From Candidatus Nomurabacteria bacterium (GTDB taxonomy: Bacteria; Patescibacteriota; Minisyncoccia; Phycocordibacterales; UBA9973), in assembly GCA_023267435.1 (NCBI GenBank), contig JAHFNH010000003.1, forward strand, positions 76,717 through 115,841: DNA of 39,125 nucleotides, in the 5' to 3' direction. Shown here in pieces: positions 16,213 to 23,735 of the stretch. The translations under genes and the position numbers were made by a program. Below the pieces are notes generated by a model. It had not been told where the DNA came from and made no database searches. It was given only the letters and a program-made list of their open reading frames with translations. Numbering within the stretch: position 1 is the first letter of the stretch; every line of letters starts with the position of its first letter.

Positions 16213-17271
16213 TTAAATCATGCGCTCGAGCGCTTTTGGATTTAATGAATATTGATAAGCGTTCTCGATTGAAATTTCTCCTGCGCGCACGAGCTCTATG
16301 AGAGAACGGTTTAAATCAACCATTCCGCTCTCCATCCCCGTTTCTATAACCACATCTATTTCATGAGTGCGCTTTTCGCGAATCAAATTTGAAACAGCGC
16401 TATTATTTAAAAGGAGTTCATAAGCTGGCACAAGTCCGCCAGCAATTCTGGGAACAAGCCTTTGGGAGAAAATACCGAGCAAGCTGGAAGCAAGCTGAAC
16501 TCTGATCTGATCCTGCTGGTTGCCTGGGAAAGAATCGATAATACGATCTATCGTCTGAGAAGCATTATTAGTATGTAAAGTTGAAAGAACGAGATGACCC
16601 GTCTCGGCAGCAGTCACAGCTGTCGAAATAGTATCAGGATTGCGCATTTCACCGATCATTATTACATTTACATCCTCGCGAAAAATAGATTTTAAAGCTA
16701 TATGAAAATCCTCTGTATCAATACCGACTTCACGCTGATCAATGATGGATTTATTTGGAACATACACATGCTCTATTGGATCTTCTACGGTCACAATATG
16801 GCGCGCCTGTTCGTTATTGATCAAATTTATCATAGCCGACAAGGTGGTTGATTTACCTTGACCAACCGGACCGACTACCAAGAAAAATCCTTGTTTCTTA
16901 CGAGCTAAATCAGCAATTATCTGAGGAAGCTTCAAGTCAGCTAAAGGCTTTACTTTTGGAACAAGCCTGAAAGCCAAACTAATTAATCCTTTTTGGAAAA
17001 AAGCGTTTCCTCGAAGTCGAGCTTCTCCTCTAAAATCATAAGAGAAATCCATTTCTTTCTTTTCTAAAAATTTAGTGAGTTTTTCTTTGTCGAGAACTTC
17101 ACCTAATATTCCGATCATGTCTTCTTTAGTGAAAACCGGATGTTTGACTAAAAAAATAAGCTCGCCATTAACGCGAATAGCCGGAACGCGTCCGCCACCT
17201 AAATGCAAATCAGATCCGCCTTCGCGGATAACAGTCAAAATAAGTTCTTCAAGTTCTTTTTTATAATCCAT
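16213..17271 (-). CDS. pilT: Type IV pilus retraction ATPase PilT
   Basis: VVGPVGQGKSTTLSAMI, TVEDPIEHVY, IMIGEMRNPDT, AAETGHLVLSTLHTNNASQTIDRIID. Confidence 0.95.
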   Translation of the reverse strand: MDYKKELEELILTVIREGGSDLHLGGGRVPAIRVNGELIFLVKHPVFTKEDMIGILGEVLDKEKLTKFLEKKEMDFSYDFRGEARLRGNAFFQKGLISLAFRLVPKVKPLADLKLPQIIADLARKKQGFFLVVGPVGQGKSTTLSAMINLINNEQARHIVTVEDPIEHVYVPNKSIIDQREVGIDTEDFHIALKSIFREDVNVIMIGEMRNPDTISTAVTAAETGHLVLSTLHTNNASQTIDRIIDSFPGNQQDQIRVQLASSLLGIFSQRLVPRIAGGLVPAYELLLNNSAVSNLIREKRTHEIDVVIETGMESGMVDLNRSLIELVRAGEISIENAYQYSLNPKALERMI

Positions 17272-17304
17272 CCTATATAAAATTAAAAAATAATAATTAA
17301 GTTA

Positions 17305-17706
17305 TTATTTAACAGCACCAGTTTTCTTAGACAAAATTTCTAAAACCTGAGTGATAACTTCTGCTGGAGTTGAGTTTGCTTTAACGATATAACCATCTAC
17401 GCCTAATTCCCTGCCATGATCAACATCTTCCTTTTGTCCCTTGTTGGAAAGAATTATTTTTGCAGAATCAACAGATAATTTTTCTGCATTGATCTTTTCA
17501 AGCATTTCAAAACCATTCATCTCCGGCATAATTATATCTGTCAGGATAATATCGGGCTTTAATCCGGATTGAAGTTTCTCTAAAGCTTGTGCACCACTGC
17601 CTACTGCATGGACATCAAAATTACTCTGGCTGAACTTCAACGCATACATATCCAACAGGAAACTATCATCATCTATTAGTAAAATTTTTCTTTTTCCTTC
17701 ATTCAT
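17305..17706 (-). CDS. Stand-alone REC response regulator within the pilus operon
   Basis: KILLIDDDSFLLDMY, DIILTDIIMPEMNGFEML, GVDGYIVKA; no output domain. Confidence 0.92.
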   Translation of the reverse strand: MNEGKRKILLIDDDSFLLDMYALKFSQSNFDVHAVGSGAQALEKLQSGLKPDIILTDIIMPEMNGFEMLEKINAEKLSVDSAKIILSNKGQKEDVDHGRELGVDGYIVKANSTPAEVITQVLEILSKKTGAVK

Positions 17707-17766
17707 ATATTTATCTTTTAATTATATTATAAAACGACTTTTAATGATATAAACCGATTAAAGAAC

Positions 17767-19518
17767 CTATTCATTCTCATTAGTGAAATTATACACCTCT
17801 TGGAAAGGAATTACACCATCCACAGCTTTAAGCATAGCATCTTCACGCATCATCAGCATTCCCTTCTTACGGGCAACCTTGTAAATCTCAGAATCTACAG
17901 GGTTTTTGAGTATCACTTCCTGCATTTCCTTGTCTACTTTGAACATTTCATAAATTGCAATACGGCCACGAGTACCGGCAGGACATTCAGGCGAAGGAAC
18001 AGTATCATACATCTCGTTTTTGATTTCAATATCTTTTTTAAATTCTTCCGGCAAATCTTTCATCTGTTCTTCGATCTGCATTCTGATGCTTTTATCCATC
18101 GGTGTAAGTTTTCTGGATGAAGGGCAAGTTAATCTCGTCAAACGTTGCGCCACAGAAAGAATCAAAGTTGGAGCAATAAGATAAGGATCCACTCCCATAT
18201 CTACAAGACGTGGAATAGCGCCAATGGCGGAGTTAGTGTGAAGTGTTGATAAAACAAGGTGTCCAGTTAATGCCGCTTGAATAGCGAGCTGGGCTGTTTC
18301 TTTATCTCGGATTTCTCCAACCATGATTACATCTGGGTCCTGACGAAGAATCGAACGCAAACCTGACGCGAAAGTATATCCAATTTCCGGCATCATTTGC
18401 GACTGGTTTATGTCAGGCATGTGATACTCAACAGGGTCTTCTAATGAAACGATATTACTTTTTTCCTTATCTAACTCATTCATCATAGAATAAAGAGTGG
18501 TGGATTTTCCGGAACCAGTCGGTCCAGTAATAAGAATAAGTCCGTAAGGTTTCTTAATAGCTTCTCTGATCATCTTGAGATTTGTTTTTGATAAGCCAAG
18601 TTGATCTAACGGCTTCACCCCTTTTTCAGAATCCAAGATACGCATCACAACCTTCTCACCATAATAAGCCGGCATTGTTGAGACACGGAAATCAATTTTT
18701 CTGCCATCAATGTTTGTACTAAAAGATCCGTCTTGAGGTTTTCTTTTTTCATCTAGACGCAATTTGGAAAGAATTTTTATGCGCGCAACTATTCCGCTGT
18801 ATACATTTGTCGGCAAAATAATCGTCGTATGAAGAGAGCCGTCCACACGATAACGAACTTTAACCTTTTCTCCAGTATGTTCTATATGTATATCGGACGC
18901 ATTACCTTCTATGGCATTACGCAATATAACTGCGACGATTTTTATAACAGGAGCATCTTCTACAATTTTTTCTTCTTCTCCAGGTTTTACGTCTTTTATG
19001 TCTTTGCTCAATCTCATAGCTTCGCCTGATTTCTTTAAATCAATAGCCTCATCTTCGTCTAATTCACCCAAGGCTTCATCTACTTGGTTTGAAATGCCTT
19101 TGTAGTTTTCCATTACGCCATTGTAATCTGTTTTAGAAATGAGAAAAATTTTGAAAGGAATTCCAAGCTTTGCAGAAATAAATTGCAATGCATCCATCGC
19201 CTGAATATTTTCCGGATCCGTCACACCAACTTCCAATACTTCATCTTGCAAACTGAGTGGAACAAATCCATAATGCATCGCAGAATCTTCCGGAATATAT
19301 TTAAGAGCATCAAAAGAAAGAGCTTTCGGATTTACTTTTTTTGTCGGCATTTGAAAATACTCTCCTTTTATTTCCAAGAGAGTTTCTTCTAAAACGCCCG
19401 ATTCAATCAAAGTATCATCAACATTACCACCGTGCTTTTCTTTGGCACGATTTTTAATTTCCCCTATTTGGCTTTCATTGATTACGCCCTTTTTAGCTAA
19501 TTCTTCTAAAAAACTCAT
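17767..19518 (-). CDS. pilB: Type IV pilus assembly ATPase PilB
   Basis: ITGPTGSGKSTTLYSMMNEL, SLEDPVEYHMPDINQSQ, VGEIRDKETAQLAIQAALTGHLVLSTLHTN; N-terminal T2SSE domain. Confidence 0.96.
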   Translation of the reverse strand: MSFLEELAKKGVINESQIGEIKNRAKEKHGGNVDDTLIESGVLEETLLEIKGEYFQMPTKKVNPKALSFDALKYIPEDSAMHYGFVPLSLQDEVLEVGVTDPENIQAMDALQFISAKLGIPFKIFLISKTDYNGVMENYKGISNQVDEALGELDEDEAIDLKKSGEAMRLSKDIKDVKPGEEEKIVEDAPVIKIVAVILRNAIEGNASDIHIEHTGEKVKVRYRVDGSLHTTIILPTNVYSGIVARIKILSKLRLDEKRKPQDGSFSTNIDGRKIDFRVSTMPAYYGEKVVMRILDSEKGVKPLDQLGLSKTNLKMIREAIKKPYGLILITGPTGSGKSTTLYSMMNELDKEKSNIVSLEDPVEYHMPDINQSQMMPEIGYTFASGLRSILRQDPDVIMVGEIRDKETAQLAIQAALTGHLVLSTLHTNSAIGAIPRLVDMGVDPYLIAPTLILSVAQRLTRLTCPSSRKLTPMDKSIRMQIEEQMKDLPEEFKKDIEIKNEMYDTVPSPECPAGTRGRIAIYEMFKVDKEMQEVILKNPVDSEIYKVARKKGMLMMREDAMLKAVDGVIPFQEVYNFTNENE

Positions 19519-19526
19519 AATATAGT

Positions 19527-19955
19527 TTAGGGTTTTGGAGTCTGAGTAGTTGGAGTATTTGTCGAACCAGGATTTGTAGTAGCTGGAGAGTTTGTATTAG
19601 GAGTTAAAGCGTTAATGGGAGCTGCGATTACATCTGAACCGATAGGAGCAAATGGGTTTGGTCTTCCTTCTGTTCCATCAGATACAAGTTGAATGCTAGA
19701 ATCACGCAAAGTAGCAAAAGCCGGATCAGAAAAAATAGAATCATCTAATTTTATGCTTTTTACATTAAGAAGGACAGTTAGAAAATCTCCACCGATAGCA
19801 CTAGAACCTGTGCTAGTCGTACTTGTGGTTGATGTGCCAGTGGATGAAGTTAAAGCTGACTGGTCTGGAGCAGGTTTAAGGAAAAAGACATAAGCCAAGA
19901 TAAGGATTATGGCGACGACTGCTAATATTATTATGTTTTTGATTATTGAAGACAT
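19527..19955 (-). CDS. Small membrane-anchored pilus-operon protein with Ser/Thr-rich linkers
   Basis: One N-terminal TM helix, S/T-rich spacer, short core (VLLNVKSIKLDDSIFSDPAF...GRPNPFAPIG), P/T/N-rich tail; lies between pilB and pilO. Confidence 0.75.
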   Translation of the reverse strand: MSSIIKNIIILAVVAIILILAYVFFLKPAPDQSALTSSTGTSTTSTTSTGSSAIGGDFLTVLLNVKSIKLDDSIFSDPAFATLRDSSIQLVSDGTEGRPNPFAPIGSDVIAAPINALTPNTNSPATTNPGSTNTPTTQTPKP

Positions 19956-19958
19956 ATT

Positions 19959-20567
19959 TTAATTTTTCAGCCAATAAGTTTTAATTTTAAATCCATATTT
20001 ATAAGAATTAGAAGAAGTAGCAGCTGCCGCAGCGGAAAGCCCCGCACCAGTATCAGAAGCAAATTGAATTGATGATACGTCGACAATTCTTAGATTACTT
20101 TCCAAATCTTTTACGAAATTAAGAAAATTTAAATAAGTGCCTTGAGTAGAAAACTCCAAATTCCAAGCTCCGTAATTCTTGCGTGAAGCAGTATTGGCGA
20201 CTCCCCCTTGGATTGCACCACTTGGTTGAGCAGTAGCGGATTGGCTGGTTGTGTCATATTTCACATCTTTCAAGACCATACCGTAAGGCGAAGCAACCTT
20301 TTCAATTTCCAAAATTAAACGAATATTATCTACAGTATCAGGTAAGAACTTCTGTAATTTATCCAAATTTCCAGGATCAATCGAATTATATTTTTGAGTC
20401 AATTTGTCTCGCTCAGCTTCAAGCGTCTTGGAATTATTCAATGCTTCATTATAAGAAGCGACTTGAGATCTCAAATCAGAAATATCATTGTAAAGCGGAA
20501 CAGTAAATACAAAAAACCCTGCAGCGGCGACTCCTATTAAAATTGCTGGAAAAGCGAATCGAAACAT
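19959..20567 (-). CDS. pilO: PilO-like pilus assembly protein
   Basis: TM helix, coiled coil, then VASPYGMVLKDVKYD...FSTQGTYLNFLNFVKDLESNLRIVDVSSI. Confidence 0.85.
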   Translation of the reverse strand: MFRFAFPAILIGVAAAGFFVFTVPLYNDISDLRSQVASYNEALNNSKTLEAERDKLTQKYNSIDPGNLDKLQKFLPDTVDNIRLILEIEKVASPYGMVLKDVKYDTTSQSATAQPSGAIQGGVANTASRKNYGAWNLEFSTQGTYLNFLNFVKDLESNLRIVDVSSIQFASDTGAGLSAAAAATSSNSYKYGFKIKTYWLKN

Positions 20568-20569
20568 AA

Positions 20570-21181
20570 TTATTGAGTATTACTGCTCTGCGTTGCGAGC
20601 ATTTGCTTATAATCTACAAACGATGGATCGACCGAAAATTCTAAATCGAACAAAACATTACCATTATTATCAAGAGAAAGATTGGAAAAAACTGGATCGA
20701 TTAATTCTTTTGCATTTGTAGAAAAAAGCATAGACTGTAACGCAATCGAACGATATCCTATAGCCTGTCCACTCATTTTAACATCTACTTTGGCATTTTT
20801 TTCGCCACTGAAATCATAACTAAATTTTGTATATCTAATATTTTTTAAAGTTTCTCTTGAGAGAACATCGAAAATCGGAGATACGGCAATATGGTTCGCA
20901 AGAATTTCATTAGAAGAACTCAAACGCTTGTCTAATACTTGAAGCTGAGTTATTTTAGAACGTTCAAAACGATTTTGAGCAAGATTTAAATCGTTCTGCA
21001 TTTGAGTAATATTTTTAGCTAAAATTCCTTTATAAAAATATAATCCACCAGAGACAACTACTATGGAAATGAAAATAAAAATTGAAAGAATAGTCAAAAG
21101 ACCGACAGGACGCGAAGCGACTGCTCGCTCTTCGACCATCGGCTTCTTTGGTATGAATGATGTTTGAAAATCTGACTCCAT
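20570..21181 (-). CDS. pilN: PilN-like pilus assembly protein
   Basis: Single TM plus coiled coil between pilM and pilO; inferred mainly from position. Confidence 0.7.
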   Translation of the reverse strand: MESDFQTSFIPKKPMVEERAVASRPVGLLTILSIFIFISIVVVSGGLYFYKGILAKNITQMQNDLNLAQNRFERSKITQLQVLDKRLSSSNEILANHIAVSPIFDVLSRETLKNIRYTKFSYDFSGEKNAKVDVKMSGQAIGYRSIALQSMLFSTNAKELIDPVFSNLSLDNNGNVLFDLEFSVDPSFVDYKQMLATQSSNTQ

Positions 21182-21203: not shown

Positions 21204-22331
21204 TTATTGTAATTTTCGCAAAGCTAAACCTAACGCAATTGCAAACTCGGGACCTGTCGTTTCGAGAACTTTTCCTAAAAATGCCGGTGCGCCGATTTTT
21301 GAAAATGGATTTCCGATTTTTACTTCCGCTCGAAAATTATTTGATGCTGTTTCCGGTAAACCTTTCAAAAGAGAACCTCCGCCTGTGAGTATAACCTTGC
21401 TGATAGTCCGATTGTACTTCTTCTCGTATCCTAATAATACATTATTCGTTTCTGAAAAGATATAGTCGGTGTGGATTTTGATGATGTCGGACAAACTTTT
21501 TTCCGCAGGACTTCCGAAAAGTCCGAATTCTTTTTTCATTTCTTCCGCTTTGGAATATGGAATACTTAAAGATTTGGAAATGGCATCGGTTATATCTGCT
21601 CCCCCGCGGTTTATAATATGAAAACCTCTGACTGATCCGAATTCGACAATAGAAAGCTTAGTATGCGATGCGCCGAAATCCATAAGGAGTACTGGTGAGA
21701 GCTCATGTTCAAAATTTGCGCGAATGGAAGAAAAAATTTCTATCTCAAAAAATCCTGCTTCGAGAGAACATTGAGAAACCAAAGATCGATATTTAGAAAC
21801 TGCATCATTCTGAATTGCCACAACTAATACTTCTGTCTTATCGGCTGGAAGAGATGCTAAATCAGGATTATTCGCTTCTTCAAAGGAAGCTTCTTTTTTA
21901 GGAAGGACAAACCAATCAAGTGAAACTTCTGTAATCGGCACAGGAATATATTTGCGAGCTTCCGTTGGAATAATGGACGCCAATTCACTTTGTTTAACCT
22001 GTGCTGGCAAATCGATGGTAAAAATAAGACTCGACTGTACTGGAACAGAAAGAGCCACGGACGGAGTCGTAACGCCGGATTGTTTTAAAACTTCTTTCAA
22101 TGCCTCGACTATTTTTTCAGCCGGTAAATTGGTAACACGTCCATTATCAAGATCAGCATAAGGACCCAATGCAATGGCTCCGTAAGTTTCAAGTACGGCT
22201 TTTCCGTTTTTTTTCTTTATTTCAACCACTTTAATCGACGAAGAACCGATGTCTATGCCGACAGCGCTATCGCTTCCACCACCTCCGAACAGGTTTCCAC
22301 TTGAGAAAAATTTTTTAAAAGGATTGTCCAT
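21204..22331 (-). CDS. pilM: PilM, actin-like type IV pilus assembly protein
   Basis: AVGIDIGSSSIKVVEIKKKNGKAVLE, LLMDFGASHTKLSIVEFG, KVILTGGGSLLKGLPE. Confidence 0.95.
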   Translation of the reverse strand: MDNPFKKFFSSGNLFGGGGSDSAVGIDIGSSSIKVVEIKKKNGKAVLETYGAIALGPYADLDNGRVTNLPAEKIVEALKEVLKQSGVTTPSVALSVPVQSSLIFTIDLPAQVKQSELASIIPTEARKYIPVPITEVSLDWFVLPKKEASFEEANNPDLASLPADKTEVLVVAIQNDAVSKYRSLVSQCSLEAGFFEIEIFSSIRANFEHELSPVLLMDFGASHTKLSIVEFGSVRGFHIINRGGADITDAISKSLSIPYSKAEEMKKEFGLFGSPAEKSLSDIIKIHTDYIFSETNNVLLGYEKKYNRTISKVILTGGGSLLKGLPETASNNFRAEVKIGNPFSKIGAPAFLGKVLETTGPEFAIALGLALRKLQ

Positions 22332-22347
22332 TTTCTTGAATTACGCT

Positions 22348-22357
22348 TATAATTATA
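22348..22357. promoter_or_regulatory. Putative bidirectional promoter: overlapping divergent -10 elements
   Basis: 10-bp palindrome TATAATTATA; plus-strand TATAAT (22348-22353) toward comF, minus-strand TGaTATAAT (22352-22360) toward pilM. Confidence 0.6.
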
Positions 22358-22363
22358 TCATAT

Positions 22364-23014
22364 ATGAATTTTTTAAACACCATATTAAATATAGCTTTCC
22401 CTGTAAACTGCATTTCCTGTGGCAAAAATGGTTCAGATTTGTGCTTGAAATGCCTCGAAGAATCTCCCGAAGCGGAACGCGAAAGTGCCAAATGGATATT
22501 TCCTATGTATGACTATCGACACCCTCCAGTAAAAAGATCTATCTGGCTTTTAAAATATAAAGGTAAGTTTAATCTGGCTGGCATCTTCGCGGAAGTTTTG
22601 TATGGCAGAATTATCGAAGAACTTTCAGATTTATCAGTAATGGAAAATTTCCGTGAGCCAATATTGATACCCATTCCCCTCGCCGGCAAGCGCAGGCACG
22701 AGCGCGGTTTTAATCAAGCTGAGCTTATTTGTAAAAAATTAATTAAATTAGATAAAAATAAAAATTTTAAACTCGAAACAGACGTCTTGATAAAACCGCA
22801 TGACACTAAACACCAAGCACAAGTTGAAAATAGAAATGAAAGATTAAAAAACATTGTCGGATCTTTCGACATAAAAAATCCAGAAAAAATAAAAGGAAGA
22901 AATATAATATTAATAGATGATGTCACCACCACCGGTGCGACTTTCAATGAAGCCAGAAAAATTTTAAAAAAACACGGCGCGAAAAAGATAATTGCTTTCG
23001 CTATCGCGCATTAA
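22364..23014 (+). CDS. comF: ComF-family phosphoribosyltransferase
   Basis: CISCGKNGSDLCLKC zinc finger, PIPLAGKRRHERGFNQAELI, IILIDDVTTTGATFNEARKILKKHGAKKI. Confidence 0.93.
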   Translation: MNFLNTILNIAFPVNCISCGKNGSDLCLKCLEESPEAERESAKWIFPMYDYRHPPVKRSIWLLKYKGKFNLAGIFAEVLYGRIIEELSDLSVMENFREPILIPIPLAGKRRHERGFNQAELICKKLIKLDKNKNFKLETDVLIKPHDTKHQAQVENRNERLKNIVGSFDIKNPEKIKGRNIILIDDVTTTGATFNEARKILKKHGAKKIIAFAIAH

Positions 23015-23069: not shown

Positions 23070-23588
23070 TTATTTTTGCTCAGTCATTAATTTTGCAATT
23101 ATTGGAATAAATTTATTGTCTGGAGCAACAGATTCACCAATGATACGAGCAGTTTCTAAGAAAACTTCCCAATTATTAAAATTACTCATTGACCCTGAAT
23201 TGTGGATCGCTATTAACCATAATGTGCTAATAGCTTCATCAATCATTGATTCATGTCCGGATACACCAGCACAACCATTTATTAATGTTATTGCGCCAGG
23301 ATACTGTTCTAATGTATCATTTTCAAATTCCTTAGAGCGTATTTTTCCAAATGACAACGTCTGCATTACTTTTTTAACAGCAAATTGAAAATACTTCATT
23401 TGCTTTTCTACAGGAACATCTCCAATTTTTTCAACGGTTAATGTATCCCCGTATTTGTAATAATATGCAAGATAAAATCCTTTACACTGAGGTTTAGGAT
23501 TATCAGGTAAATTTTTAAGAGCTATTTCAAGCCTCATTAAAAATTCGTTCATATCGGAGTGAGCCACCGATTTAAAATGTGTTTCCAA
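23070..23588 (-). CDS. Hypothetical protein
   Basis: 172-aa ORF with terminator and promoter context; likely TTG start or a downstream ATG. Confidence 0.65.
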   Translation of the reverse strand: METHFKSVAHSDMNEFLMRLEIALKNLPDNPKPQCKGFYLAYYYKYGDTLTVEKIGDVPVEKQMKYFQFAVKKVMQTLSFGKIRSKEFENDTLEQYPGAITLINGCAGVSGHESMIDEAISTLWLIAIHNSGSMSNFNNWEVFLETARIIGESVAPDNKFIPIIAKLMTEQK

Positions 23589-23633: not shown

Positions 23634-23663
23634 TGAATTATAACACAGACCGTACATAAAAGT
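23634..23663 (-). promoter_or_regulatory. Putative sigma70-like promoter
   Basis: Minus-strand TTGACT, 18-nt spacer, TATAAT with TG extension (TGTTATAAT); coordinates approximate. Confidence 0.6.
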
Positions 23664-23735
23664 CAAACAAATAACTGACTTTACTTTTTTATAAAATGTA
23701 TTACAATTAGTTAAATCAATCAATTCTTCGTAAAG

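Follow-up and report, generated by a model that had tools for sequence, protein, structure and literature searches.

A probable bidirectional promoter shared by the type IV pilus operon and comF in a Candidatus Nomurabacteria-type genome and its relatives

The palindrome TATAATTATA, located at positions 22348-22357 of the window (the whole stretch of 39,125 nucleotides analysed in this study, which belongs to a 797-kb Candidatus Nomurabacteria-type MAG of the CPR), probably acts as a bidirectional housekeeping-sigma promoter serving both the pilus operon headed by pilM and the divergent gene comF. Depending on which way it faces when it binds the palindrome, RNA polymerase, having melted the shared A/T-rich core, would start either the pilM operon or comF. 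Most likely, such a site would be a compact constitutive promoter of a streamlined genome rather than a switch, setting a roughly fixed, pilM-biased ratio of pilus to ComF. Pilus assembly and DNA uptake would thereby be linked at one site, in a group (the CPR) of which cultivated Saccharibacteria are known to undergo com-dependent transformation (PMC10633639).

The entire predicted promoter lies in the intergenic gap of 32 bp (22332-22363) between pilM on the minus strand (21204-22331, ATG at 22331; Pfam PilM_2, E=1.5e-40) and comF on the plus strand (22364-23014, ATG at 22364), with gene starts taken from ORF-based calls. The rest of the pilus run (16213-21181) is on the same strand as pilM and comprises an unassigned ORF in the PilN position (20570-21181), PilO (19959-20567), a small ORF (19527-19955), a PilB-type ATPase (17767-19518), a response regulator (17305-17706), and a PilT-type ATPase (16213-17271); based on strand and spacing, the run is presumably transcribed as a single unit. 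The product of comF is a ComFC-like phosphoribosyltransferase-fold protein with a Pribosyltran match and a weak DZR_2 match in Pfam, and the gene stands alone, as the following ORF is on the opposite strand. A strong promoter-like site (TTGACT, 18 nt, and a TG-extended TATAAT) was also observed at 23637-23666 on the minus strand, ahead of an ORF at 23070-23588 that has no Pfam match.

Two -10 hexamers on opposite strands overlap by 2 bp within the palindrome, so that the gap, the palindrome, and the overlapping elements described in the earlier note were all recovered in the sequence. The element facing pilM is the extended -10 TATGATATAAT (22352-22362, minus strand; hexamer 22357-22352, TG one base upstream at 22360-22359), an exact match to TRTGNTATAAT that includes the TGATATAAT (22360-22352) from which the earlier note had correctly called this side extended. 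The element facing comF, TATAAT at 22348-22353 on the plus strand, ends 10 nt before the ATG, and this side of the window reads ACGCTTATAAT, with no TG in the corresponding position. Transcription starts were predicted at 7 nt past each hexamer, at 22345 for pilM (minus strand) and at 22360 for comF (plus strand), the latter also in view of the genome-wide distances between -10 and ATG, and would be 15 bp apart. The pilM direction would thus use a strong extended -10 with a predicted leader of about 14 nt and no Shine-Dalgarno, and the comF direction a TATAAT lacking TG with a predicted leader of about 4 nt, which is near-leaderless. Since the comF half of the window lacks the TG that most relatives have, comF output in the window may be weak. 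No RNA family was found at the promoter in Rfam.

The strongest evidence for the shared promoter comes from relatives. Same-genus genomes were searched for PilM and ComF, the loci so obtained were combined with those on named GTDB contigs, and deduplication by sequence left 74 non-identical same-genus loci, whose PilM proteins are 65-81% identical. A TG with a near-consensus hexamer is present on the pilM side in 67 of these 74 loci, and a recognisable pilM-facing extended -10, on which the alignment was anchored, in 72. Among these 72 loci, a comF-facing TG-extended -10 (TGnTA) occurs at one of two discrete spacings, rather than scattered, in 56: an overlapping class with the hexamers offset by 4 and overlapping by 2 bp (36 loci), and a spaced class with an offset of 13-16, about 10 bp further apart (20 loci). 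A further 12 loci, one of which is the window, have the exact TATAATTATA at this position without TG on the comF side, and only four loci have neither comF-facing form. When the 32 bases adjacent to the -10 of pilM were shuffled in 2000 trials, both spacings together gave a mean of 0.85 loci and a maximum of 6, a comparison that ignores kinship; by class, the means were 0.57 (offset 4) and 0.28 (offset 13-16), never exceeding 5 and 3, respectively. Conservation of the palindrome, which the earlier note had put forward as a check, is therefore seen both as the exact form and as paired -10s, and the proposal of one overlapping -10 for both genes is supported by two halves that are each conserved across the genus. 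This comparison is strong sequence-level evidence, decisive for placing the arrangement beyond chance, and part of the symmetry is nevertheless inherent to TATAAT.

The spacing classes interleave on a tree of the ComF and PilM proteins, and some supported sister pairs differ in class (for instance, the loci L030 and L136). The four classes need 23 changes on this tree, and well-supported branches alone require at least seven changes for the overlapping class and at least six for the spaced class; these counts are approximate, as the tree comes from a quick search and has many weak branches and the loci were deduplicated by sequence. In the palindrome class, nine of the 12 loci form one well-supported clade together with one variant (L008), and the window (L005), L007, and L079 are placed outside it. 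As the spacing changed several times, the pairing of the -10 elements is not one inherited accident. Furthermore, both elements were kept while their relative position was rebuilt, which is predicted by selection for two promoters and not by a passive mirror image of TATAAT. Many relatives have a gap of 20-24 bp, in which each hexamer stops about 10 nt short of its own ATG, and almost every locus of the overlapping class has 8-11 nt between the comF -10 and the ATG, close to the spacing usual in the genome of the window. A tentative explanation, which we regard as a possibility and not as the expected outcome, is that selection maintains just two placements of the opposed -10s, the 2-bp overlap and a separation wider by about one turn of DNA, with hardly any intermediate. 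These placements alone would give compatible start sites and usable leaders (near-zero or at least 12 nt) in bacteria without Shine-Dalgarno pairing, and the choice of orientation by the polymerase would set the fixed pilus-to-ComF ratio.

We infer from the arrangement of the elements that both transcripts are made, with starts at the sites given above, and it is reasonable to suppose that polymerases would exclude one another there. Of the reciprocal or joint tuning that the earlier note envisaged, the reciprocal kind would, going by E. coli data, require one side to be strongly activated. Exclusion could amount to a regulatory switch added to, and compatible with, the bidirectional promoter, in which strong occupancy by polymerase in the pilM direction represses comF and vice versa. 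This addition seems unlikely: overlapping -10s cannot hold two polymerases at once, and interference has a precedent in E. coli, where strong activation of one direction of a bidirectional promoter brings it about, but the same study reported no competition at basal strength (PMC12825309), no activator site was found here, and the spacing varies freely among relatives.

The conserved comF-facing half also bears on the suggestion of a pilM promoter alone, with a mirrored half that is an accident of the near-symmetry of TATAAT and a comF transcribed from elsewhere, such as from inside pilM. The pilM side is indeed the stronger and better conserved one, the comF side of the window has no TG, and neither of the comF-facing forms looked for is present in the four loci mentioned above. 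However, nothing in the pilM motif dictates a comF-facing TGnTA, which nevertheless occurs at fixed spacing in 56 of the 72 loci, where 0.85 were expected, and has arisen anew at a second spacing on several occasions; this makes a pilM-only promoter improbable. The set of loci across this CPR genus, with both halves kept and their spacing repeatedly rebuilt, is evidence from evolution for a functional second direction, as opposed to a by-product of -10 symmetry.

The same variation in spacing speaks against the palindrome being the operator of a dimeric regulator coordinating pili and competence. A near-perfect palindrome of 20 bp, as in TATGCTAAAATTATANCATA, is present in many relatives and would suit such a role, but its half-site is the ordinary promoter motif of the genome at an ordinary distance from the ATG, the two -10 hexamers differ (TAAAAT or TAATAT against TATAAT), and the halves lie about 10 bp further apart in 20 loci, a change seldom compatible with a rigid dimer site. 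With half-sites at 4 or at 13-16, and hence no fixed spacing, the operator was rejected as very improbable. Chance in A/T-rich DNA hardly merits consideration, for although the decamer is not enriched genome-wide, the arrangement is conserved across loci as divergent in PilM as those compared here.

The motif counts in the genome of the window separate the decamer from the extended element. The decamer alone is found at six sites, compared with five for the reversed control, so it is not over-represented; by simple arithmetic, the odds of it landing by chance in this particular 32-bp gap are roughly 1 in 4000. Enrichment is seen for the extended form, TRTGNTATAAT, with 30 sites against 7 in the control. 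Statistics given for the genome were compiled from the window and ten 20-kb stretches (approximately 239 kb). Further sites with a double extended -10 of the same geometry in this genome are L172 (G000:C3:42599), which separates divergent genes, and L174 (G000:C9:179000), where an ATG follows 6 nt past the hexamer.

The distances of promoters to starts in this sample help to explain how so short a gap may be sufficient. A -10-like hexamer lies 3-12 nt from the start codon, in every case an ATG, in 55 of 149 operon-leading genes, with a peak at 6 nt (21 of the 149, 15 of these 21 with TG), and Shine-Dalgarno-like motifs are at background level in the same 239 kb. In addition, the 3' end of the 16S rRNA of this genome reads TCGTGGAATAATTCAATTTG after helix 45 and lacks CCTCC; CCTCC is likewise missing in each of the 30 relatives inspected, of which 17 belong to other families of the order. 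Single CPR members, Campbellbacteria and Wolfebacteria among them, were already reported to have lost the anti-Shine-Dalgarno (PMC10783764, the only directly relevant study that literature searches on leaderless transcription or anti-Shine-Dalgarno loss in CPR brought up), and its absence here is an extension of a known phenomenon. The near-absent comF leader fits a genome with -10s close to the ATG and a 16S rRNA without anti-Shine-Dalgarno, and with leaderless or near-leaderless starts, 20-32 bp would be room enough for a promoter and the starts of two genes. From the sequence of the window together with L162-L171, leaderless transcription is predicted to be a main mode in this genome.

On sequence features, the site belongs with the bidirectional promoters described by Warman/Grainger in E. 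coli and Salmonella (PMC12825309, PMC10268837), a kind defined above all by divergent RNAs from both strands, in which near-symmetry likewise gives overlapping -10s on opposite strands that serve two divergent genes; here, the two elements share base pairs (the 2-bp overlap), and both halves are conserved beyond chance (the 56 loci against 0.85, plus the 12 exact palindromes). However, its predicted geometry is unusual, as the start sites would be about 15 bp (offset 4) or 5 bp (offset 14) apart, whereas the preferred distances reported are 18, 10, and 23 bp (PMC12825309), a statistical preference that is not strictly defining. Other differences are that most relatives have TG extensions on both halves and that at least one leader is nearly absent. 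Compared with extended -10 promoters (TGnTATAAT), the pilM side fits fully, and the comF side fits in the 56 relatives but not in the window itself. The site also resembles promoters of the leaderless type, such as those of the leaderless bacterial genes treated in PMC3160421, since the comF -10 ends 10 nt before the ATG and the genome peak is at 6 nt, but here two of them would stand back to back in 20-32 bp.

The earlier note had also proposed TTGTCC, 18 nt upstream of the comF TATAAT, as the -35 element of comF. The hexamer is indeed at that position (22324-22329, plus strand), but it is the complement of pilM codons 1-3 (Met-Asp-Asn), and its conservation as a -35, for which a classical promoter would have 16-18 nt, seems poor: TTATCC or TTATTC stands at this place in most relatives. 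TTRTYC is found 18-19 nt from the comF -10 in nine of the 12 palindrome-class loci and 8 nt from it in many loci of the overlapping class, the distance elsewhere being mostly 8 nt or irregular. As the comF -35, TTGTCC is poorly supported, being mostly pilM codons. It may be a weak substitute for the missing TG, with a minor -35 role, or may merely reflect a constant length of the pilM leader. Promoter-like sites in general number 13 in 3 kb, compared with 9.7 expected, which also weakens the case for the -35.

In each of the 42 order-level loci evaluated outside the genus, comF and pilM remain divergent, mostly across a different gap, and in many families of the order pilM is preceded by a similar extended -10 that faces it. 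A promoter shared across the whole order was rejected: the divergent gene order is kept, yet no fixed shared -10 was found in these loci. Sharing is most simply read as a genus-level trait, in which an older divergent pair would have been condensed. Among the records used, L071 (JAMPXW010000001.1) carries a pilM locus of the Nomurabacteria type under the title "Burkholderiales bacterium", and this title seems wrong.

Several relatives have a copy of an inverted-repeat element between the shared promoter and comF. Its ends resemble TCCCGTTAGAAA and TTTCTAACGGGA, and its arms are often 50-110 bp apart. The element lies in the comF leader in L013, L028, L031, L060, L107, and L147, and on the pilM side in L159. 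No Rfam match was obtained for the inserted repeat in six relatives carrying it, and TTTCTAAYGGG, a pattern related to the repeat arm, is absent from the genome of the window. An exact 12-mer of the arm is present at 4-12 copies per genome in nine relatives.
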